From NCBI RefSeq assembly GCF_000715015.1, contig NZ_JMIW01000001.1, forward strand, positions 186,001 through 250,000: a stretch of 64,000 bases of DNA. The letters are read 5' to 3'. The notes under the pieces are model-generated. The model worked only from the letters and a program-made list of their open reading frames with translations. It searched no databases and was not told the origin of the DNA. The stretch comes from Erythrobacter longus. GTDB taxonomy: Bacteria; Pseudomonadota; Alphaproteobacteria; Sphingomonadales; Sphingomonadaceae. Both the position numbers and the translations under genes were made by a program. Each line of letters opens with the position of its first letter. Position 1 is the first letter of the stretch. This document shows positions 17,982-28,213 of the stretch, piece by piece.

Positions 17982-17996
17982 GAACATAATAGGAAC
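17982..17996 (+). promoter_or_regulatory. LexA (SOS) box upstream of imuA
   Basis: GAAC-N7-GAAC (spacer ATAATAG) is the reverse complement of the alphaproteobacterial LexA consensus GTTC-N7-GTTC. It lies 35 bp before the imuA start, inside the expected promoter. Confidence 0.88.
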
Positions 17997-18031: not shown

Positions 18032-18916
18032 ATGACCAAACCCGATCCTCTTTCCCGGCCTAAAGTGCCGCCCCTTGCGCACCTCTCGGGTGTGGATGTC
18101 GCCGCTCTGTCAAAACAGCGTGAGGCGCGCTGGCGGCCGGGGCTTACCGATCAACCGCTGCACAGCGAGATTTTTGCAAGTGCCCGTGATGCAAGCGGGG
18201 CGGGGCTGGCACTGGCTTTGGCGCGCGATGGCTTAAGCGTTTGCGAGGGGGTTCGGGAACAAGGTGCGCTGGCCGAAGCAGAGGACCGGCGGCAGATTTT
18301 GTGGGTGCAGGATAAACGCGCGGTCGAACTCAGCGGGCGACCTTACATCCACGGCCTTCCCGAAGAATGGCGCGAACGGGTGATCTGTGTCGAGGCGGGC
18401 AAACCCGAAGATGCTCTGTTTGCGCTGGAGGAGGGGCTGAAATGCCGGGACTTGGCTTGCGTGATCGGGGAGATTGCGGGGAATCCGCGCGCGCTCGACT
18501 TTACGGCTTCGCGGCGGCTTAGTCTGGCAGCAGAAAAGCATGGCGTGGCCTTGTGGCTGGTGCGGCTTGAGGCGCAGAGCGATTTGTCTTCGGCAAGGAT
18601 GCGGTGGCGCGCGCGCCCTGCGGTTTCACCTGAGCCGCGCTGGGATGCGAAGGGGCCAGGTGTACCCACTTGGCAAGCGGAGCTTTTCCGGGCGCGCTCT
18701 CATGCTCCGGGGGAGTGGAAGCTTGCCCAGGACGCGAAGCGATTGTGTGTTTCCAAATCGCCCAAGCCACCCGCCAAAGAAACTGAACGCCCCCTCGAGC
18801 ACACCCCAGATGTCCCTTTCAAATCCTCCAGAAAATCCCGGCATAAACCGGCGCATAATGGCAATCTGGTGCGCGCAACTTTCGGTCGATCGATGGCGGC
18901 TGTCTCAAGGGGATAG
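18032..18916 (+). CDS. imuA: ImuA, SOS mutagenesis protein
   Basis: A 294-residue RecA/SulA-like partner of the ImuB-DnaE2 mutasome. The alphaproteobacterial ImuA core is recognisable: LEEGLKCRDLACVIGEIAGNPRALD, followed by FTASRRLSLAAEKHGVALWLVRLE, SSARMRWRARPA and the C-terminal AELFRARSHAPGEW. It is likely required for error-prone translesion synthesis after DNA damage. A LexA box precedes it. It overlaps the imuB start, so the two are translationally coupled. Unlike the classical imuA-imuB-dnaE2 operon, dnaE2 here lies about 4 kb further on in a second SOS unit. Confidence 0.88.
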   Translation: MTKPDPLSRPKVPPLAHLSGVDVAALSKQREARWRPGLTDQPLHSEIFASARDASGAGLALALARDGLSVCEGVREQGALAEAEDRRQILWVQDKRAVELSGRPYIHGLPEEWRERVICVEAGKPEDALFALEEGLKCRDLACVIGEIAGNPRALDFTASRRLSLAAEKHGVALWLVRLEAQSDLSSARMRWRARPAVSPEPRWDAKGPGVPTWQAELFRARSHAPGEWKLAQDAKRLCVSKSPKPPAKETERPLEHTPDVPFKSSRKSRHKPAHNGNLVRATFGRSMAAVSRG

Positions 18917-20504
18917 GGCGCGCGAGGCTGAGTCTGCGGGGGCTAGGGCGCAAGGGGATAAGGGCGAGAGTGAGGGGGAAGAAGAGCTTCCCACCGCCCT
19001 CATCACCGAAACCGCCCATGGTCCGCGCATTGATGCGGTGAATGCGGCGGGGCATGCAGCGGGCGCTCGCACAGGACAGATGCTGGCGGATGCACGCGCG
19101 CTTTATCCGGGGCTCAAGACCGCGCCGTCTGACCCTGCGGGCGATCTTGCCTTCCTCGAAAAGCTTGCCCTTTGGGCCCAGCGTTGGGGGCCGTGGAGCG
19201 CGCTTGATCCGCCCGATGGTGTGATCGTCGATGTGACGGCGGTCGCGCATTTGTTCGGTGGGGAGGGCAGGCTTCTCGCCGATGTGGAACGTGCCTTTGC
19301 GAAGCGGCATCTGGCTGTGCGTGCGGCAATCGCTCCCACAGCAGGTGCTGCCTGGGCATTGGCACATTTCGGACCGCGCCTTGGCGGTGGGAGCAGCATC
19401 CTTGCACCTTCCAGCGAAGAGGCGATGATGCGCCAGCTTGCGGACCTTCCCGCAGCAGCGCTCAGGCTCGACACCGACGTTCTTACCGTCCTTCGCCGCC
19501 TTGGTCTGAAGCGCCTCGGCGATCTTGCCGATATCACGCGGGGGGCGATCAACCGGACAGAAGCGGCTGCGCGTGATGCGCTCCACCGCCGGTTCCGGGG
19601 CCGCAAGTCGCCATCGGCCAACCCGCTCATCCGGCTCGACCAATTGCTCGGCCGCGTGCCCGAACCGCTGCTTCCTGTGGTCCCGCAGCATATGCCCCTG
19701 GTACAGCGCCGCTTGATGGAGCCGCTGCGCCACCGTTCGCTGCTTGACCAGGTGCTGGAGGATTTGGCGCAGGATATGGCGCGCGAACTTGAGGCACAGG
19801 GGCAGGGCGCACGGCGGCTTGAACTGGGTATGTGGCGGGTCGATGGAGAGGTGATTGTGCGCCGCCTTGAACTGGCCGCGGCGACAAGGGACGCAGCTCA
19901 CATCACCCGCCTGTTTGCAGAAAAGCTCGAAGGGATCGAGGCAGGCTTTGGAATAGAAACCGTGCGTTTGCGGGTCAGCTGGGCAGAACCCTTCGCCGCC
20001 TCCCAAAGCGATGTCGAGGAAGCCGCGGCCCGTCATGGCACTTCGCTGTCTGCATGTATCGACCGGTTGAGCGTGCGCCTTGGCCCTCAAGCGGTGCGCC
20101 GCCCGGTTGCCCATGCCAGCCACCTGCCTGAACGCGGCGTTATCTGGCAGCCTGCGCTTTCCTCTTTTACGGCCCCTTTAACGGCCCCCAATACGCTCAA
20201 TATCCCCCTTGCCAGACCGCTCAAACTGCTCGACCGGCCAGAGAAAATCGCCGTGCTTTACGCCTCACCCGATGGCTACCCCCAGCGTTTTCGATGGCGC
20301 GCGCGGGTGCATGAGGTTGCCCGTGTCCAGGGCCCGGAACGCATTGCCCCTGAGTGGTGGCGAGAGCGCTCCACCACGCGTCTGCGCGATTATTACCGCA
20401 TCGAGGACAAGCAGGGCGCGCGTTATTGGATTTATCGTTCAGGGATCACAGGCGATGGCCGTGGCGGTACTCCGGATTGGTTCCTGCACGGGATCGACGC
20501 GTAA
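18810..20504 (+). CDS. imuB: ImuB, Y-family DNA polymerase-like mutasome protein
   Basis: Catalytically inactive Y-family polymerase relative that links ImuA and DnaE2 to the beta clamp. The N-terminus (NRRIMAIWCAQLSVDRW) matches the family start. The palm/fingers region includes LADARALYPGL and the DPPDGVIVDVTAVAHLFGGE segment, then a little-finger domain. The C-terminus has the ImuB-specific GPERIAPEWWRERS and YWIYRSG patterns. With ATG 18810 the length is 564 residues; ATG 18858 is an alternative (548 residues). The start lies inside imuA. Confidence 0.88.
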   Translation: MSLSNPPENPGINRRIMAIWCAQLSVDRWRLSQGDRAREAESAGARAQGDKGESEGEEELPTALITETAHGPRIDAVNAAGHAAGARTGQMLADARALYPGLKTAPSDPAGDLAFLEKLALWAQRWGPWSALDPPDGVIVDVTAVAHLFGGEGRLLADVERAFAKRHLAVRAAIAPTAGAAWALAHFGPRLGGGSSILAPSSEEAMMRQLADLPAAALRLDTDVLTVLRRLGLKRLGDLADITRGAINRTEAAARDALHRRFRGRKSPSANPLIRLDQLLGRVPEPLLPVVPQHMPLVQRRLMEPLRHRSLLDQVLEDLAQDMARELEAQGQGARRLELGMWRVDGEVIVRRLELAAATRDAAHITRLFAEKLEGIEAGFGIETVRLRVSWAEPFAASQSDVEEAAARHGTSLSACIDRLSVRLGPQAVRRPVAHASHLPERGVIWQPALSSFTAPLTAPNTLNIPLARPLKLLDRPEKIAVLYASPDGYPQRFRWRARVHEVARVQGPERIAPEWWRERSTTRLRDYYRIEDKQGARYWIYRSGITGDGRGGTPDWFLHGIDA

Positions 20505-20566
20505 ATTTTCGCAAAATCCAAAGACATGGTTATCCTTTGTTTACGTGTTTCTGCGATAATCATACC

Positions 20567-20914
20567 ATGATGACGCAACAACAACCGCAACAACCACCGC
20601 GCGGATCTGACAGGCGTCCTCTTCACCTGATGGTCAAGGGGCGCGTACAGTCGCGTACAATCTTTGCTGATCTGGTCGATATCTCCGAAGGTGGCTGCAA
20701 GCTTCGCGCAAGCTCAGGCTTTGCCAACGAAGGCGACCGCGTAACCATTCGCATAAACGGCATCAACGCGCCCTTGGGCAAGGTCGTATGGGTCGAAGGC
20801 AAGGTCGCAGGGGTCGCCTTTGAAAGCGCCATGCACGTCGCGGTTCTGGATCACCTGTGTCAAGCTGTAGAGACTGCAAGCTTCCAAGATAAGCTGCGGA
20901 TGCACCGCGTCTGA
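20567..20914 (+). CDS. PilZ-domain protein
   Basis: A 115-residue single-domain protein. The PilZ cyclic-di-GMP binding pattern is present as RxxxR upstream (RGSDRRPLHLMVKGR) and DxSxxG as DISEGGCKL, followed by the beta-strand section RVTIRINGINAPLGKVVWVEGKVAGVAFE. It presumably acts as a cytoplasmic c-di-GMP effector; the partner is unknown. It is separated from imuB by 62 bp and ends before a terminator, so it is probably not functionally part of the SOS unit. An alternative ATG lies at 20570. Confidence 0.82.
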   Translation: MMTQQQPQQPPRGSDRRPLHLMVKGRVQSRTIFADLVDISEGGCKLRASSGFANEGDRVTIRINGINAPLGKVVWVEGKVAGVAFESAMHVAVLDHLCQAVETASFQDKLRMHRV

Positions 20915-21013: not shown

Positions 21014-21092
21014 TTCTTAGCTTGGCCAAATTCTTGGCTTGGTCAAACCATTAGCTTGGCCAAACCATTAGCTTGGCCAATGTTTAGCTTGG
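21014..21092. repeat. 17-bp tandem repeat overlapping the end of a secreted-protein gene
   Basis: About 4.6 units of 17 bp with core TTAGCTTGGCCAA. The unit at 21082-21092 contains the stop codon and last two codons (Pro-Ser-stop) of the minus-strand gene, so each further unit carries a copy of CCAAGCTAA. This is the pattern expected from replication slippage at the gene's 3' end. Confidence 0.85.
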
Positions 21093-21731
21093 ATTGTATG
21101 GAATCGTCGATTTGTGCACGGTCATTTTCAAATCACCCTCGGCATCGCGGATATAGCCGATGGTGTATTCGACCTTCACCTCATCCCCGCCATTTGCAGG
21201 CGTGAAGTAATAATTGCCCATCGCAACAGCCATATTGCAGATGTTGTTCGTGATGCCAGCGTTCTGCCAGCGCACCTTTGACCATGGGGTGATCGCAAAG
21301 CCCTTGTCTTCTGGGTAAGACGGGTTGCCACCTACGAAATAGGATAGTGCGCCATCAAATGATGGGCGAAACTGTTCTGCCGAAGCAAGCGTTGGTTTAA
21401 ACAGGACCAGGCTTTCATCATAGGCGTAAAACTGGTCGATGTGATCAATCGCGGCTTGGCGGTAATCGCCGCCAGATGAATATACGCCGCCGATTTTTAC
21501 GATACCATTGCCCCAGGCTTCCTGCGCGGCAATCACTTCCTTTTCGGTGATGCACTGCAATTGTGCCTCGGTGGGCGCGCGAGGCTGACCGGCGCCGATT
21601 GGCGTTGTATTGTCAGTTTGCGCGCCCGCAGCAGTGGCGAGCACTGCAGTGACCGCGGCTGTTACTGCGGTGGTGGCTGCAAGGCGGATCTTTGCAAGGC
21701 CTGTTAGACTGCCTGTTGTATTATTTGTCAT
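21084..21731 (-). CDS. Secreted NTF2/SnoaL-like protein of unknown function
   Basis: A 215-residue protein with an N-terminal signal peptide (hydrophobic AAVTAVLATAAGAQ, cleavage after about residue 38). The mature part has the helical-then-beta pattern of SnoaL/NTF2-like proteins: EVIAAQEAWGNGIVKIG, HIDQFYAYDESLVLFKPTLA, and VEYTIGYIRDAEGDLKMTVHKS. Homologues are often labelled phosphoribosyl-AMP cyclohydrolase in databases; nothing here supports that function. An AAGGAG before ATG 21731 decides the start; the frame runs on to 21758. The 3' end lies in a 17-bp tandem repeat. Confidence 0.72.
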   Translation of the reverse strand: MTNNTTGSLTGLAKIRLAATTAVTAAVTAVLATAAGAQTDNTTPIGAGQPRAPTEAQLQCITEKEVIAAQEAWGNGIVKIGGVYSSGGDYRQAAIDHIDQFYAYDESLVLFKPTLASAEQFRPSFDGALSYFVGGNPSYPEDKGFAITPWSKVRWQNAGITNNICNMAVAMGNYYFTPANGGDEVKVEYTIGYIRDAEGDLKMTVHKSTIPYNPS

Positions 21732-21893
21732 CTCACACTCCTTGGTGGGTATTTCCACTCGTGTTGACAGTGAGATATGCCGAAACGCAGCGCCGCGAAA
21801 TTGCCCGATAAGCCTAAGTCAAACTGTGTAGGCTGTATGGCTTATGCCTTTCTGGATCAGTTGCACACTTTGCATTTGCGGCCATGGATGTTG

Positions 21894-21908
21894 GAACATA
21901 TAAGGAAC
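21894..21908 (+). promoter_or_regulatory. LexA (SOS) box of the radical SAM-udgX-dnaE2 unit
   Basis: GAAC-N7-GAAC (spacer ATATAAG), same orientation and spacing as the imuA box. It ends 2 bp before the start codon and overlaps the ribosome-binding site, so LexA would block both promoter escape and leader synthesis. Confidence 0.88.
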
Positions 21909-21910
21909 AT

Positions 21911-23164
21911 ATGCCCCAAGCCATCCTAAAACAGCAATCTTTACGCGAACGCCTCGAAATCCTCGCCGATGCGGCGAAATACGATGCGTCCTGCGCGTCT
22001 TCGGGCACGGCGAAGAAGAATTCGATTGGCGGTAAAGGGGTTGGCTCAACCGAAGGGATGGGTATCTGCCACGCTTATGCCCCCGATGGGCGGTGCATCT
22101 CGCTGCTGAAGGTGCTTTTGACCAATCACTGCATCTTTGATTGCCACTATTGTATCAATCGGAAGAGCTCGAACACGCCGCGCGCGCGGTTTACACCGCA
22201 AGAGGTCGCTGACCTCACGATCAATTTCTACAAGCGCAATTATATCGAGGGGCTGTTCCTCTCCTCCGGCATTATCAAAAGCTCCAATCACACGATGGAG
22301 CAGTTGATGGAGACAGCGCGGATCCTGCGCGAGGAATATGATTTTCGCGGTTATATCCATCTCAAAACCATTCCAGAGGCCGATCCTGAACTGATCGAGC
22401 AGGCGGGGATGTATGCGGACCGGGTGTCGATCAATGTGGAACTGCCAACACGCGCAGGGCTTACCCGGCTTGCACCTGACAAGGACGAGGCGGAGATCGA
22501 AGGCGCTCTGGCGAAGACAAGCGCGCGGATTATTCAGGCAAAGGATGAAAGGAAACGCTTTCGCCATGCGCCGCGCTTTGCCCCGGCGGGCCAATCGACG
22601 CAGATGATCGTGGGCGCAGATGATGCGAATGACACCGCGATCGTGAGCCGTGCGGCGGGCCTCTACGGCAATTTTGGCCTTCGCCGCGTCTATTACAGCG
22701 CCTTTTCACCGATCCCTGATGCAAGCGCGGTGCTGCCTTTGAAACGACCTCCGCTGATGCGCGAACACCGCTTGTATCAATCCGATTGGCTGATGCGGTT
22801 TTATGGCTTTGGCGCAAATGATGTGGCCGATGCGACGGAGGATGATGGGAACCTCCCGCTTGATATTGATCCCAAGCTTGCCTGGGCTTTGAAGTTTCGT
22901 GGGGAATTCCCGGTCGATGTAAACCGCGCGTCCAAAGAACAGCTTTTGCGTGTGCCGGGGTTGGGAACAACGGCGGTGGGGCGGATTTTGAAAGCGCGGC
23001 GATACAGGCGTTTGCGGCTTGAGGATGTGGGCAGGCTCACCCAGTCAATTGCAAAGGTTCGGCCCTTTCTGGTCGCGGCTGATTGGCGACCAACGCAGCT
23101 TACGGACAGGGCAGATTTGCGCTCAATGCTTGCGCCTAAGCTGGAACAGTTGGAGCTGTTTTGA
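21911..23164 (+). CDS. Putative DNA modification/repair radical SAM protein (SplB-like)
   Basis: A 417-residue radical S-adenosylmethionine enzyme. The cluster motif CxxxCxxC is CIFDCHYC (Cys74, Cys78, Cys81). The C-terminus has a helix-hairpin-helix, VPGLGTTAVGRILKARRY, typical of DNA-binding repair proteins. This is the family that occurs next to UdgX-type genes; its chemistry is not established. I chose ATG 21911 because the longer frame (21884) would place the LexA box inside the gene. The stop overlaps the next start by one base. Confidence 0.88.
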   Translation: MPQAILKQQSLRERLEILADAAKYDASCASSGTAKKNSIGGKGVGSTEGMGICHAYAPDGRCISLLKVLLTNHCIFDCHYCINRKSSNTPRARFTPQEVADLTINFYKRNYIEGLFLSSGIIKSSNHTMEQLMETARILREEYDFRGYIHLKTIPEADPELIEQAGMYADRVSINVELPTRAGLTRLAPDKDEAEIEGALAKTSARIIQAKDERKRFRHAPRFAPAGQSTQMIVGADDANDTAIVSRAAGLYGNFGLRRVYYSAFSPIPDASAVLPLKRPPLMREHRLYQSDWLMRFYGFGANDVADATEDDGNLPLDIDPKLAWALKFRGEFPVDVNRASKEQLLRVPGLGTTAVGRILKARRYRRLRLEDVGRLTQSIAKVRPFLVAADWRPTQLTDRADLRSMLAPKLEQLELF

Positions 23165-24609
23165 TGACCGCTCTCCAGCACGTCTCCCTCGGCGCCCATT
23201 ATGTCGTCCATCTCCCGCGCCCCGATGACTTTGCCTTTTGGCGTGAGCGGGCGCGCCAGCTTATCCAGTGCGATGTGCCCCCTGACCGGGTGAGCTGGGT
23301 GGAGCCGGGGGGTACGGGTGATCTGTTCGCTTTTGAAGGGCCTTCTCGGGGTGAAAAACGCCTGCCTGTGCCGGAGGTGGACGCTCCTCAAGTGCGCGCT
23401 TCCAAGCGGTTTATGCGCCTTGCCCGCAATGTTTGTGTCCATTCTGAGCCAGAGCGGTTCAGCCTCCTCTACCGCACCTTATGGCGCCTCCAATCGCAGC
23501 CCGGCTTTATGCAGGACAGCGCGGATACGGACGTGCGCCGGATCGAGGAACTCGACAAAGAGGTTCGCCGCGACGCGCACAAGATGCACGCCTTCGTCCG
23601 CTTTCGCGAGGTGACAAGTGAAGAGGGCGATCACTATGTCGCCTGGTTTGAACCAGACCACCACATTGTGCGCGCGCAGGCGGGCTTTTTCATGCGCCGT
23701 TTTGCCAATATGCGCTGGTCGATCCTCACGCCCAGAGGCTGTATCCATTGGGATGGCAAGACGATGCGCGAAGGTCCCCCGGCGCGGCGCGAGGATGCTC
23801 CCACAGGCGATCCGGTGGAGGCGCTTTGGAAGTCCTATTACGCCTCAATCTTCAACCCCGCGCGGCTCAAAGTGGGCGCGATGCTGTCGGAGATGCCCAA
23901 GAAATATTGGAAGAATATGCCAGAGGCCGAGCTTATTCCTCAGCTGATCGCAGGCGCACAGGCGCGCGAGGCGGGCATGGTGGCAGCAGGCGCGCGTGAG
24001 GTGCGCGAGGTGCCTTCGAGCCTGGAGGCGATTGCTGAGGGGATCAGCGCTTGTAGTGATTGCCCCATCGCTGAATGCGGCACCCGCGCCGTGATGGGCG
24101 AAGGCGCACCGGGCGCGCCATTGATGATCGTTGGCGAACAACCGGGCGATTCTGAGGATTTAGCGGGCAAACCTTTTGTGGGACCGGCGGGCCAATTGCT
24201 CGATGTGTATCTGGGCAAAGCCGGGATTGACCGGAGCGAGGCCTACGTCACCAATGCGGTCAAGCATTTCAAGTTCGTCGCGCGCGGCAAACGCCGCATC
24301 CACCAGACCCCGCAGGCCAAGGAAATCGACACCTGCCGCTTCTGGCTTGAGGCAGAGCGTAAGGTGGTGGCCCCGCGTGTGGTGCTGGCGCTTGGTGCGA
24401 GCGCTGCAAGAGCAATGCTTGGCCGCACGGTAAGCCTTGCCAAAGAGCGCGGGGCGCCGGTGCCCTTGGAGGACGGCAGCGAGCTTTGGATCACCGCGCA
24501 CCCGTCCTATCTCCTGCGCCTCGATGGCGAGGCTAGGGCGGCGCAGGAGGAGCTTTTCGCGCGGGACTTGGCAGCGGTGAGAGGGCGTTTGCTCGAGGTC
24601 ACCTCGTGA
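23164..24609 (+). CDS. udgX: DUF4130-UdgX fusion, uracil-DNA binding/repair protein
   Basis: A 481-residue two-domain protein. Residues about 1-270 are a DUF4130-type domain (DRVSWVEPGG, HKMHAFVRFREV, WFEPDHHIVRAQAGFF, MPKKYWKNMPE). Residues about 285-481 are a family-4/UdgX uracil-DNA glycosylase-like domain. Iron-sulfur ligands are visible at Cys297, Cys300 and Cys391, motif A is GEQPGDSED, and the UdgX-specific loop KRRIH has His380. In characterised UdgX that histidine forms a covalent bond with the abasic DNA after uracil removal. It is translationally coupled to the radical SAM gene and ends 1 bp before dnaE2. Confidence 0.9.
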   Translation: MTALQHVSLGAHYVVHLPRPDDFAFWRERARQLIQCDVPPDRVSWVEPGGTGDLFAFEGPSRGEKRLPVPEVDAPQVRASKRFMRLARNVCVHSEPERFSLLYRTLWRLQSQPGFMQDSADTDVRRIEELDKEVRRDAHKMHAFVRFREVTSEEGDHYVAWFEPDHHIVRAQAGFFMRRFANMRWSILTPRGCIHWDGKTMREGPPARREDAPTGDPVEALWKSYYASIFNPARLKVGAMLSEMPKKYWKNMPEAELIPQLIAGAQAREAGMVAAGAREVREVPSSLEAIAEGISACSDCPIAECGTRAVMGEGAPGAPLMIVGEQPGDSEDLAGKPFVGPAGQLLDVYLGKAGIDRSEAYVTNAVKHFKFVARGKRRIHQTPQAKEIDTCRFWLEAERKVVAPRVVLALGASAARAMLGRTVSLAKERGAPVPLEDGSELWITAHPSYLLRLDGEARAAQEELFARDLAAVRGRLLEVTS

Positions 24610-24610
24610 C

Positions 24611-27600
24611 ATGCCCGAGGCTCCGCTCACCCCTGACAAACGCACGATTGCGCTTGATCCTGACCTGATCGAGCCGCCATCCAAAGCGCCCTTTGTGGAG
24701 CTGGGGCTGGTGAGTTGTTTCAGCTTCCTTCGCGGCGCGTCTGATGCGGTGGACCTTGCGATGACCGCTCGGGCGCTGGGATATGATGCGCTGGGGATTG
24801 CAGATAGCAACAGCTTGGCCGGGGTCGTGCGGCTCCACACGGAAGCCAAAACCCTCAAACTACGGCCCGTGATCGGCACACGCATTGAAACGGTCGAGGG
24901 GCTCCATTTCCTCGCCTACCCGAAGGACCGCGCTGCCTATGGCCGCCTCTCGCGCCTGATCAGCCAGGGGCGGATGCAGACGCTTGACGGGGAGTGGCAG
25001 GAAAAAGGCGTGTGCGAGATCAGCCTTGCGATGCTCGCGGAGCATTCGGAAGGCGTGCAGCTGATCCTTCTCCCGCCGGGTGATCTGGAGGCCGCAATCA
25101 CCATCGAGGTTGAAAGCAATGTCGTTCCCCTTCGACCTGAAGATGGGGTGGCGGAGAAGGTGAAACTCACCGCGCCTTTCCCCAAACTGCTCCCTGATCT
25201 CACCCGGCAACTGCCAACCCTTCGTCACCTCGCTGCAAGCTATCTCTACCGCGGAGATGATGTCGCGCGCATTGATCGGTTGGACGCGCTTGCTCGCGAC
25301 AATGGCCTCACCCTGCTCGCCACCAACGATGTGCATTACCACGCCCCCTCGCGTCGCCCTTTGCAGGACGTGATGACAGCGATTGCGAACAAGACCACGG
25401 TGGCAGAGGCAGGGCATCTGCTCCACGCCAATGCCGAACGGCACCTCAAATCGCCTGAGCAAATGCTGCGCCTGTTCGCGCGCTGGCCCCATGCGATCCG
25501 TGCTGCGCGCGAAGTGGCGGACAATTGCGACTTTTCGCTCGACGAACTCTCATATGAATATCCAGAGGAAATTTACCCTGATGGGATGACCCCGCAGGAA
25601 TATCTTGAGGTGGAGACATGGGCGGGGGCTCTCCGGCGTTATCCTGAAGGCGTGCCGGACAGTGTCCACGATACGTTGGAGCGCGAACTGGCGTTGATCG
25701 CCAAGCTCGACCTTGCGCGATATTTTCTCACCATCAAGGACATCGTCGATTTCGCGCGCAGCGTCGACCCGCCGATCCTGTGTCAGGGCAGGGGGTCTGC
25801 GGCCAATTCTGCCGTCTGTTATTGTCTTGAAATCACCAGTGTAGACCCTGCCAAGCATCAACTCCTCTTCGACCGCTTCATCTCTGAAGAACGTAAAGAA
25901 CCACCCGACATCGACGTCGATTTCGAGCATGAACGGCGCGAGGAGGTGATCCAGTATATCTATGCCAAATATGGGCGAGCACGTGCCGGGCTGACGGCAA
26001 CGGTCATCCACTATCGTCCCCGAATGGCTATCCGCGAAGTGGGCAAGGCGATGGGGCTGTCTGAGGACGTGACGGCGCGCCTTGCCAAAAGCGTTTGGGG
26101 GTCATGGGGCCGCGAGATTAGCGAGAAACACGCAGGCGAAAGCGGTCTGGACGTGAGCGACCCGCATCTTCGCCGCGTGCTTGCATTGACCGAACAGATG
26201 ATCGGCATGCCGCGCCATTTGTCTCAGCATGTGGGCGGGTTTATCCTCACCGACGGGCCGCTCACTGAAACCGTGCCGATTGGCAATGGCGCCATGCCCG
26301 ACCGCAGCTTCATCGAGTGGGACAAGGACGATATTGAGGCTCTGGGTATCCTCAAGGTCGATGTGCTGGCGCTGGGGATGCTCACTTGCATCAAGAAATG
26401 CCTTGATCTGCTCACCGCGCACCACGACCGCACTCTCACGCTTGCCACCGTCCCGCGCGAGGATCCGGAGACTTATGCGATGCTGCGAAAGGGAGATTCG
26501 CTGGGTGTTTTCCAGGTGGAGAGCCGCGCGCAGATGAACATGCTCCCGCGCCTTCGTCCGCGTGAGTTTTATGATCTGGTGATTCAGGTCGCGATTGTGC
26601 GCCCGGGGCCGATCCAAGGGGATATGGTGCACCCCTATCTCAAACGCCGCCGGGGCGCAGAGCAGGTGATGATCCCCAAGCCATCACCAGCGCACGGTCC
26701 TCCTGATGAGCTTTCCAGCATCTTGGCGCGCACTTTGGGTGTGCCGATTTTTCAGGAGCAGGCGATGAAAATCGCTCTTGATGCCGCCAAATTCTCGTCG
26801 CTTGAGGCCAACCGTTTGCGTAAAGCCATGGCGACGTTCCGGTCGCGCGGGATGGTGGATGAACTGCAAGACATGATGGTCGAGCGGATGGTCACGCGCG
26901 GCTATGAACGCGACTTTGCTCAGCGGTGCTTCAACCAGATCAGGGGATTTGGCGAATACGGTTTTCCCGAAAGCCACGCGGCGTCTTTTGCGCATCTGGT
27001 GTATGTTTCAAGCTGGCTCAAATGCCATTTCCCGGCGGCCTTTGCAGCAGCTTTGCTGAACTCTCAGCCGATGGGCTTTTATGCGCCCGCTCAGATTGTG
27101 CGCGATGCAAGGGAGCACGGCGTGGAGGTGTTGCCAGTGGATGTGAATGCAAGCGAGTGGGATTGTACGCTGGAGATTGCGCAGGCCCACCCCGCTGCGA
27201 CTAGCGCCGACGATGTCGACGCCAGTCTCACTGCCCCTCCCGCAAGCGGGAGGGGAGCGAAGCTTGGCAGCTTGCTGCCTAGCGAAGCGGGGTGGGCAGG
27301 GCGCAATCAGGGCCGCCAAGACCGGCACATCGCCCTGCGCCTGGGCCTGCGCCAAATTGACGGTTTGCATGAACATATCGCCGCGCAGCTTGTCGCAGAG
27401 CGTACAGAGAATGGCCCGTATCGCGATGTGGCTGAACTGCGTGAGCGCGCCGGGCTCTCGCCGCCGCATATCGAGCGGCTTGCGAGCGCGGACGCTTTCA
27501 CCTCTCTGAACCTGTCTCGCCGCCAAGCCCTTTGGGATGCGCGCAGCCTTATTGCAGGGCCTGACCTGCCGCTGTTCCGGGCTGCTGAGGAGCGCGATGA

Positions 27601-28213
27601 AGGGGCGGAGAAATCGCCCACGAAGCTTCCCACAATGCCGATGTCCGAAGAGGTGGTGAACGATTATCAGACCACGCGGTTGAGCCTGAAAGCGCATCCG
27701 ATGGCTTTCCTGCGGCCGCGTCTTGCCGAGCGCGGATTTGTGCGCGCCTGTGACCTCAGGAACCGCAAATATCGCTCCATGGTACAGGTTGCAGGCGTTG
27801 TCCTCATCCGTCAGCGCCCCGGCAGCGCCAAGGGCGTGTGTTTTATCACGCTGGAGGATGAGACCGGGGTGGTGAACCTTGTGGTGTGGCCTGACCTGAA
27901 AGAGAAACAGCGCGGCGTGGTCATGGGCGCGCGGCTGATGGAGGTGCGGGGGCGCGTTGAATATGACGATGAAGTCATCCACGTGATCGCGCAAAATATG
28001 GTCGATGCCAGCGACCAACTTTACGCGCTGTCTGATGATATGCTGACCGCCCCGCTCGCCCGGGCAGACCATGTGAACACGCCGCTTCAGGGACGAAAAG
28101 CGCCAGCGACGCGCGAAGCGATACATCCGCGCGACATGATCGATGAGCTACCAGCCTCACGAGGGCACCCGCGCAATCACCGGATCATTCCTAAATCGCG
28201 GGACTTTCACTAA
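24611..28213 (+). CDS. dnaE2: Error-prone DNA polymerase DnaE2
   Basis: C-family polymerase of the SOS mutasome, 1200 residues, longer than most DnaE2. The PHP domain starts at about residue 29 (FVELGLVSCFSFLRGASDAVDLA). The polymerase core has the catalytic aspartates in PDIDVDF (Asp433, Asp435), CQGRGSAANSAVCY and HVGGFILTDGPL. The C-terminus has the helix-hairpin-helix and OB domains (VQVAGVVLIRQRPGSAKGVCFITLEDETG). Residues about 859-896 are encoded by a 113-bp nested palindromic element that appears to have been inserted without breaking the frame. ImuB should recruit it to the clamp. Confidence 0.95.
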   Translation: MPEAPLTPDKRTIALDPDLIEPPSKAPFVELGLVSCFSFLRGASDAVDLAMTARALGYDALGIADSNSLAGVVRLHTEAKTLKLRPVIGTRIETVEGLHFLAYPKDRAAYGRLSRLISQGRMQTLDGEWQEKGVCEISLAMLAEHSEGVQLILLPPGDLEAAITIEVESNVVPLRPEDGVAEKVKLTAPFPKLLPDLTRQLPTLRHLAASYLYRGDDVARIDRLDALARDNGLTLLATNDVHYHAPSRRPLQDVMTAIANKTTVAEAGHLLHANAERHLKSPEQMLRLFARWPHAIRAAREVADNCDFSLDELSYEYPEEIYPDGMTPQEYLEVETWAGALRRYPEGVPDSVHDTLERELALIAKLDLARYFLTIKDIVDFARSVDPPILCQGRGSAANSAVCYCLEITSVDPAKHQLLFDRFISEERKEPPDIDVDFEHERREEVIQYIYAKYGRARAGLTATVIHYRPRMAIREVGKAMGLSEDVTARLAKSVWGSWGREISEKHAGESGLDVSDPHLRRVLALTEQMIGMPRHLSQHVGGFILTDGPLTETVPIGNGAMPDRSFIEWDKDDIEALGILKVDVLALGMLTCIKKCLDLLTAHHDRTLTLATVPREDPETYAMLRKGDSLGVFQVESRAQMNMLPRLRPREFYDLVIQVAIVRPGPIQGDMVHPYLKRRRGAEQVMIPKPSPAHGPPDELSSILARTLGVPIFQEQAMKIALDAAKFSSLEANRLRKAMATFRSRGMVDELQDMMVERMVTRGYERDFAQRCFNQIRGFGEYGFPESHAASFAHLVYVSSWLKCHFPAAFAAALLNSQPMGFYAPAQIVRDAREHGVEVLPVDVNASEWDCTLEIAQAHPAATSADDVDASLTAPPASGRGAKLGSLLPSEAGWAGRNQGRQDRHIALRLGLRQIDGLHEHIAAQLVAERTENGPYRDVAELRERAGLSPPHIERLASADAFTSLNLSRRQALWDARSLIAGPDLPLFRAAEERDEGAEKSPTKLPTMPMSEEVVNDYQTTRLSLKAHPMAFLRPRLAERGFVRACDLRNRKYRSMVQVAGVVLIRQRPGSAKGVCFITLEDETGVVNLVVWPDLKEKQRGVVMGARLMEVRGRVEYDDEVIHVIAQNMVDASDQLYALSDDMLTAPLARADHVNTPLQGRKAPATREAIHPRDMIDELPASRGHPRNHRIIPKSRDFH
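27185..27297. repeat. Nested palindromic element inside dnaE2
   Basis: Terminal arms GCCCACCCCGCT and AGCGGGGTGGGC are perfect 12-bp inverted repeats. Inside lie CCCCTCCCGC-AA-GCGGGAGGGG (10-bp arms, 27234-27255) and GGCAGC-TT-GCTGCC (27266-27279). The translated segment is rich in Ala, Gly and Ser and does not resemble DnaE2 sequence. The element looks like a sphingomonad-type REP/palindromic repeat that normally sits between genes. Confidence 0.75.

Follow-up and report, generated by a model that had tools for sequence, protein, structure and literature searches.

A 64,000-nucleotide stretch of the Erythrobacter longus genome (contig NZ_JMIW01000001.1, positions 186,001 to 250,000), referred to here as the window, was found to carry on its forward strand a predicted operon of three genes, encoding a radical S-adenosylmethionine protein (rSAM), a fusion of a DUF4130 domain with the uracil-DNA glycosylase (UDG)-like domain UdgX, and DnaE2 (ImuC), an error-prone polymerase III alpha subunit. 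The rSAM gene (21911..23164, 417 amino acids) was assigned by NCBIfam and Pfam profiles, matching TIGR03916, which we take to be COG4277, at 567 bits (cut-off 343.5), and its only other matches at E <= 0.001 were to the generic Pfam radical SAM, helix-hairpin-helix (HhH) and Fer4_12 profiles. The fusion gene (23164..24609, 481 amino acids) contains the DUF4130 domain (23449..23925, residues 96-254; 230 bits against TIGR03915, cut-off 112.25, and 143.3 bits against Pfam DUF4130, cut-off 27) followed by the UdgX domain (23932..24579, residues 257-472 by profile and fold; 301.2 bits against TIGR03914, cut-off 189.95), and dnaE2 (24611..28213) matched PRK05672 at 1390.4 bits (cut-off 939). A LexA box of the GAAC-N7-GAAC type (GAACATATAAGGAAC, 21894..21908, forward strand) ends 2 bp before the rSAM ATG, the rSAM and fusion genes overlap by 1 bp and a 1-bp gap separates the fusion gene from dnaE2, in agreement with a preliminary description of this DNA that had placed such a box against three tightly coupled genes. 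The closest relative of the rSAM protein, from an uncultured Erythrobacter, was 95% identical.

A pattern scan revealed a second LexA box on the same strand (17982..17996), about 3.9 kb upstream of the three-gene operon, which precedes imuA and then imuB. The assignment of imuA (18032..18916, forward strand) is weak, at 31.3 bits against an NCBIfam cut-off of 150, with its position directly behind the box; imuB (18858..20504, forward strand; scanned from 18861) has IMS, IMS_C and DUF6504 domains above Pfam cut-offs and gave no NCBIfam match. With a second box and imuA-imuB upstream and dnaE2 downstream, the locus is therefore an imuA-imuB-dnaE2 mutagenesis cassette, split by inserted rSAM and DUF4130-UdgX genes. 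The preliminary description had the operon right and overlooked both this second box with imuA-imuB and the clamp-like tail of the rSAM protein that is described below. Between imuB and the rSAM operon a PilZ-like open reading frame (20354-20914) and, on the opposite strand, a secreted-looking one (21084-21758) were noted by eye.

With 5 exact matches in the window, where chance would give 1.59, the pattern by itself is only mildly over-represented and is weak evidence; genome-wide it occurred 85 times, fewer than its reversed control (209). Relatives were scored for a perfect GAAC- or GTTC-N7 box within -250 to +30 of the rSAM start, using 23 loci of the same class (from 25 over cut-off, excluding the window's own locus and a partial one in G045), 40 of 100 loci of the same family, 80 Sphingomonadales loci and 20 of the 29 loci over cut-off from other classes of the phylum. 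A perfect box was present at 22/23 class loci, compared to 1.7% of random 280-bp stretches, and at 39/40 family loci (where the T-rich boxes of L137 and L140 could be chance matches) and 78/80 Sphingomonadales loci. We take this conservation across relatives as strong evidence, which decides in favour of a real box, and the direct repeat conserved at the promoter places the rSAM operon within the predicted alphaproteobacterial LexA regulon, for which the published motif is GTTC-N7-GTTC (PMC8565304). The lexA gene of this genome itself has a box approximately 145 bp upstream. No GAAC/GTTC-N7 box was found at the 20 loci from other classes, as would be expected if LexA in those classes reads another motif.

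A longer rSAM reading from 21884 would place the box inside coding sequence, and 21911 is the likelier start because the 2-bp spacing from box to ATG recurs in relatives, the first in-frame ATG lying exactly 2 bp after the box at 29/40 family and 60/80 Sphingomonadales loci, but at only 5/23 class loci. It is possible that the operon is transcribed as a leaderless mRNA. For 21 other boxes of this genome, spread over 17 stretches, the adjoining genes were viewed by eye, and two of them (L088:1059-1724 and L098:2340-2972) encode regulator-like proteins with N-termini that look similar by eye. Their starts lie 86 and 69 bp away from boxes of the GAAC/GTTC-N7 type, and they may be further SOS genes.

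Across 385 genomes of the class, rSAM and DUF4130 were both over cut-off in 24, one alone in 2 and neither in 359, such that 24 of the 26 genomes with either family have both. One of the two remaining genomes had rSAM alone, as a partial match in an 85%-complete assembly (G045), and the other had DUF4130 alone, with a short sub-cut-off rSAM match adjoining (G182). DUF4130 adjoined rSAM at 23/23 class loci and at 20/20 loci from other classes of the phylum, and was its stand-alone neighbour in Fusobacterium, Subdoligranulum and Acinetobacter records. In two family genomes (G389 and G410) the DUF4130-UdgX fusion was located elsewhere, and 3 of the 80 Sphingomonadales stretches were without DUF4130, one of them (L224) having only 697 bp downstream. 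The Caulobacter vibrioides control genome exceeded the cut-off for TIGR03915 and also gave a match to TIGR03916. A scan of viral contigs returned 2 loci, which were of little use. UdgX was fused at 16/23 class loci and found at 8/20 other-class loci; at the remaining 7/23 and 12/20, which keep rSAM and DUF4130, it was not found (no tblastn match above 45 bits in a stretch of up to 18 kb, or 6.9 kb for L267), and 5 of those 7 class genomes had no UdgX over cut-off anywhere in the genome. Because rSAM and DUF4130 persist without UdgX, the conserved core is, judged by gene content, this pair, and UdgX is an optional domain. At several loci from Sphingomonas, Novosphingobium and related genera (L118, L125, L127, L172, L188 and others) approximately 350-2,800 bp separate rSAM from DUF4130, a spacing that would fit an extra gene. 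Two records filed as plasmids, NZ_CP077849.1 (L282, 3.66 Mb) and NZ_CP084075.1 (L277, 2.1 Mb), look chromosomal on the sole basis of their size.

The UdgX domain of the window retains the residues of its family, with E325 and Q326 in motif A (GEQPG), R378 and H380 in the R-loop (KRRIH, 24289..24303) and R452 in motif B; the loop histidine is residue 380, as the preliminary description had stated. Among 55 aligned UdgX sequences the motif A glutamine was present in 54/55, and the R-loop arginine, R-loop histidine and motif B arginine each in 55/55. The modelled domain matched the fold of Mycobacterium smegmatis UdgX (6l6s) with a Z score of 28.8 and a root-mean-square deviation of 1.8 over 198 aligned residues, and is predicted on this basis to have a UDG family-4-like fold. 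In a search of a viral structure library the named matches were mostly UDGs and DNA polymerases, with many rows nameless. The mycobacterial proteins (6ail, 6l6s; fold Z 28, 42-45% identity) have GEQPG and KRRIH in common with the window domain, whereas the latter is fused behind DUF4130 and its motif B reads HPSYLLR, not HPS(S/A). This signature has been described, with the R-loop histidine as the nucleophile, and UdgX has been proposed to shield apurinic/apyrimidinic (AP) sites (PMC10359453); covalent crosslinking via His380 would thus be expected of the window protein.

With this signature intact, including the histidine in 55/55 sequences, and with the three genes in the same operon, covalent marking of uracil or AP sites by UdgX could be seen as the core activity, which rSAM and DnaE2 would serve in induced mutagenesis, as the preliminary description proposed. 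We regard this as improbable, given that the class and other-class loci listed above yielded no UdgX match and that UdgX was below cut-off throughout 5 of the 7 class genomes concerned. Three elements of that proposal stood at sequence level, namely control by the SOS response, the active-site signature of UdgX and the connection with DnaE2 mutagenesis. UdgX marking together with DnaE2 as a working trio did not: rSAM and DUF4130 travel together, UdgX is often not found beside them, and the trio as a conserved unit was rejected as dnaE2 directly adjoins in only 30/100 family genomes. A further idea gives the rSAM enzyme the task of releasing or repairing the crosslink of UdgX to DNA; it is favoured by operon neighbourhood only and was rejected because rSAM and DUF4130 occur without UdgX; we give it very little credence. 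A role in anti-phage defence was also rejected, since none of the three proteins had a match to a PADLOC family at E 0.001.

In the rSAM protein the radical SAM motif C74-x3-C78-x2-C81 (22130..22153) was invariant in 169/169 aligned rows, the window protein included. Three further cysteines, C28, C53 and C62 (spanning 21992..22096), were kept in 168/169 rows, the sole exception being a Gemmatirosa relative of 36% identity, and these six near-invariant cysteines make an additional metal site, iron-sulphur or zinc, a fair guess. Lipoyl synthase has an extra cluster, and lipoyl synthases were the best fold matches of the rSAM model (8trw, Z 12.8, root-mean-square deviation 3.7, 212 aligned residues), a likeness of shared fold only. 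The model is weak around the cysteines, with a predicted local distance difference test score (pLDDT) under 50 at residues 25-71 and 73-86, and a sequence search of the PDB found no rSAM relative at E 0.01. An HhH motif identified by Pfam suggests that the protein binds DNA. The spore photoproduct lyase SplB is a radical SAM enzyme that acts on DNA, and the window rSAM differs from it in its three extra near-invariant cysteines and its HhH motif; no spore-lyase family was among the NCBIfam and Pfam matches, the presence of such a model in these libraries being unchecked. The Gemmatirosa relative (L278), without the three extra cysteines, keeps a QLSLW near its C-terminus and had no DUF4130 found adjoining it; it may belong to a sister subfamily.

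The C-terminus of the window rSAM is QLELF (residues 413-417; 23147..23161), outside the TIGR03916 profile match (residues 11-408). QLxLF is the beta-clamp-binding consensus, and C-terminal peptides of this kind serve the polymerases DinB and Pol II for docking on the clamp; the DinB-like polymerase of the same genome ends in AQLSLL. We searched the last 60 residues of rSAM homologues for the loose pattern Q[LMF]x[LM][FWLIAY] and for its strict form ending in F or W, and found the loose pattern in 162/168 and the strict in 147/168. Ends of 673 other stop-to-stop frames (at least 300 amino acids, from class and other-class loci, spurious frames included) gave 3 loose and 0 strict matches, and windows within rSAM bodies 4/847 loose and 0 strict. 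The pattern was present at 21/23 class, 40/40 family, 80/80 Sphingomonadales and 16/20 other-class loci and in 5/5 plasmid records, in sets that overlap and are related, so that the counts are non-independent, the other-class and plasmid sets being the most independent. A narrower count, confined to the final 16 residues and with the pattern slightly altered, gave 157/168 and misses motifs with longer tails after them; the motif stands before further residues in Subdoligranulum (QLSLF), Fusobacterium (QLKLF) and Gemmatirosa (QLSLW). Across an alignment of 45 rows, Q413 was kept in 45/45 and L416 and F417 each in 44/45, with residues 405-412 mostly variable (P409, 41/45).

By sequence, this tail looks like a conserved beta-clamp-binding motif, kept in Pseudomonadota and also found in the one record viewed from each of Bacillota, Fusobacteriota and Gemmatimonadota. 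In mycobacteria the beta-clamp motif through which ImuB works is QLPLWG (PMC10421592). The literature searched, with most subscription journals outside its reach, held no report of a clamp-like tail on a radical SAM protein.

The relationship of the rSAM unit to dnaE2 was followed in 149 genomes of the family, where DnaE2 was over cut-off in 96/100 genomes with rSAM compared to 36/49 without (p 1.2e-4, without removal of kinship; sub-cut-off DnaE2 fragments were counted as absent on both sides, in G396 with rSAM and G478 without). DnaE2 was thus below cut-off in 4/100 rSAM-bearing genomes, the one in G396 being a fragment, and dnaE2 adjoined the rSAM unit on the same strand in 30/100. Linkage in the Sphingomonadales was counted at 61 of the 80 loci, leaving out 19 with too little flank; dnaE2 followed in 22, of which 21 also had imuB upstream, starting approximately 1.6 to 4.3 kb before rSAM in the linked loci. 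In the class set dnaE2 followed in 2/23 stretches and was divergent in one more, the distant locus L065, where imuA-imuB-dnaE2 stands divergently beside the rSAM unit. On a quick rSAM tree of 132 rows the dnaE2-linked state (40 rows) required 15 changes, compared to approximately 34 in shuffles. Taken together, these distributions indicate that the dnaE2 coupling is real but lineage-bound.

Such patchy adjacency, in 30/100 family genomes and 2/23 class stretches, and the clustering of the linked state on the tree would suit an arrangement in which rSAM-DUF4130-UdgX is an SOS-regulated base-repair unit in its own right, whose operon in one lineage happens to include dnaE2, the two working on different lesions. 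We consider this unlikely, though a good deal less so than a system centred on UdgX: rSAM co-occurs with DnaE2 within the family (kinship not removed), the distant L065 has a divergent imuA-imuB-dnaE2 neighbour, and the clamp-like tail is akin to those of translesion polymerases, as for ImuB (PMC10421592).

Within dnaE2 itself, positions 27226-27305 form an in-frame palindromic element with the core CCCTCCCGC-N2-GCGGGAGGG, which resembles the palindromic elements found inside genes of Rickettsia. Counted on both strands, the core gave 55 matches in the genome, or approximately 28 sites, and its control gave 0. In the closest relative (L151) the protein sequence points to a diverged copy, and the insert was absent from the six other DnaE2 proteins compared (11 loci queried, 7 found).

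Parts of this system are already known, namely the family links and the SOS control of the UDG/COG4277 pair. The names of NCBIfam TIGR03914, TIGR03915 and TIGR03916 (rSAM_link_UDG, SAM_7_link_chp) already link the domains, and all three were over cut-off here; beyond that trio, the window operon includes dnaE2 inside a split imuAB cassette and a clamp-like tail. A COG1573-COG4277 pair, consisting of a UDG and COG4277, was inferred to be SOS-regulated in Bacteroidetes by comparative genomics, with LexA control reported earlier in Verrucomicrobia and Alphaproteobacteria (PMC8565304). That operon, like the one in the window, places a UDG and COG4277 under LexA, and was read as base-excision repair; DUF4130 and the clamp motif are not mentioned in the accessible portion of the paper (PMC8565304). 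An earlier study (Aravind et al. 2013, PMC3765255) predicted DUF4130 to be an enzyme related to mutagenesis and noted its association with genes for radical SAM proteins and UDGs; its accessible text contains neither a survey of the pairing nor a clamp motif for the radical SAM protein. With the imuA-imuB-dnaE2 mutasome the window shares imuB, dnaE2 and a LexA box before imuA, and differs in being split by the rSAM and DUF4130-UdgX genes with a second LexA box. New, as far as the literature searched extends, are the conserved clamp-like tail, the genome-by-genome pairing of rSAM with DUF4130, the extra cysteines and the split cassette.

On balance we lean towards an SOS-induced, clamp-tethered rSAM-DUF4130 pair that would process lesions, with UdgX as an add-on trap for AP sites, co-expressed with DnaE2 in this lineage. 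The families, gene order, box, rSAM-DUF4130 pairing, UdgX signature and clamp-like tail are seen directly at sequence level, and from these we infer LexA binding, clamp binding, cotranscription, the chemistry and the order of events. Upon DNA damage LexA would come off its box next to the start codon of rSAM, and transcription would give one mRNA for the three genes. The rSAM protein would then hold DNA with its HhH domain and dock its C-terminal QLELF on the beta sliding clamp, and, together with its obligate partner DUF4130, may act by radical chemistry on DNA that is damaged at forks or gaps. Uracil would be excised by the fused UdgX domain, which would trap the resulting AP site on His380 and shield it, and DnaE2 with ImuA and ImuB would then copy past the damage that remains.

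Several points weigh against this reading. The radical chemistry of the rSAM protein is assumed from family membership. DUF4130 was barely covered by the fold search, the matches being to UdgX and other UDGs in rows spanning residues 277-481, and a profile search of the PDB with six DUF4130 sequences returned two matches at chance level. The clamp motif is a short peptide, counted in homologue sets that are related, and in 6/168 homologues its position is taken by variants outside the loose pattern (QLGFGF, QLALPLF, QASLF three times and QGSLF). Of four extra outgroup tails (L282-L285), outside the 168 homologues, only one fits (QLSMF), QLSLGF, QLSFF and QLRFDF being looser. Residues 412-417 have pLDDT under 50 with a short helix drawn there, and this low model confidence neither shows nor excludes a docking peptide. 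Finally, coupling of the unit to dnaE2 is not obligatory, given the patchy adjacency and the few rSAM-bearing genomes with DnaE2 below cut-off.

A broader and more tentative proposal, which we hold with less confidence than the reading of the window itself, is that TIGR03916 proteins as a family are replication-fork radical SAM enzymes working on the beta clamp, to which their C-terminal docking peptide would tether them. Where synthesis has stalled, they would use an extra metal site and the obligate DUF4130 to repair or modify a lesion by radical chemistry, before the translesion polymerases or in competition with them on the same clamp, and UdgX would be a later add-on that seals AP sites. 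An SOS gene pair present in several phyla thereby gains a concrete hypothesis, that of a radical SAM enzyme docking on the sliding clamp. If true, this would place radical-based DNA processing at the fork beside the translesion polymerases, would make DUF4130 the obligate partner of a radical SAM enzyme and would give UdgX a natural setting as a clamp-associated shield of AP sites.

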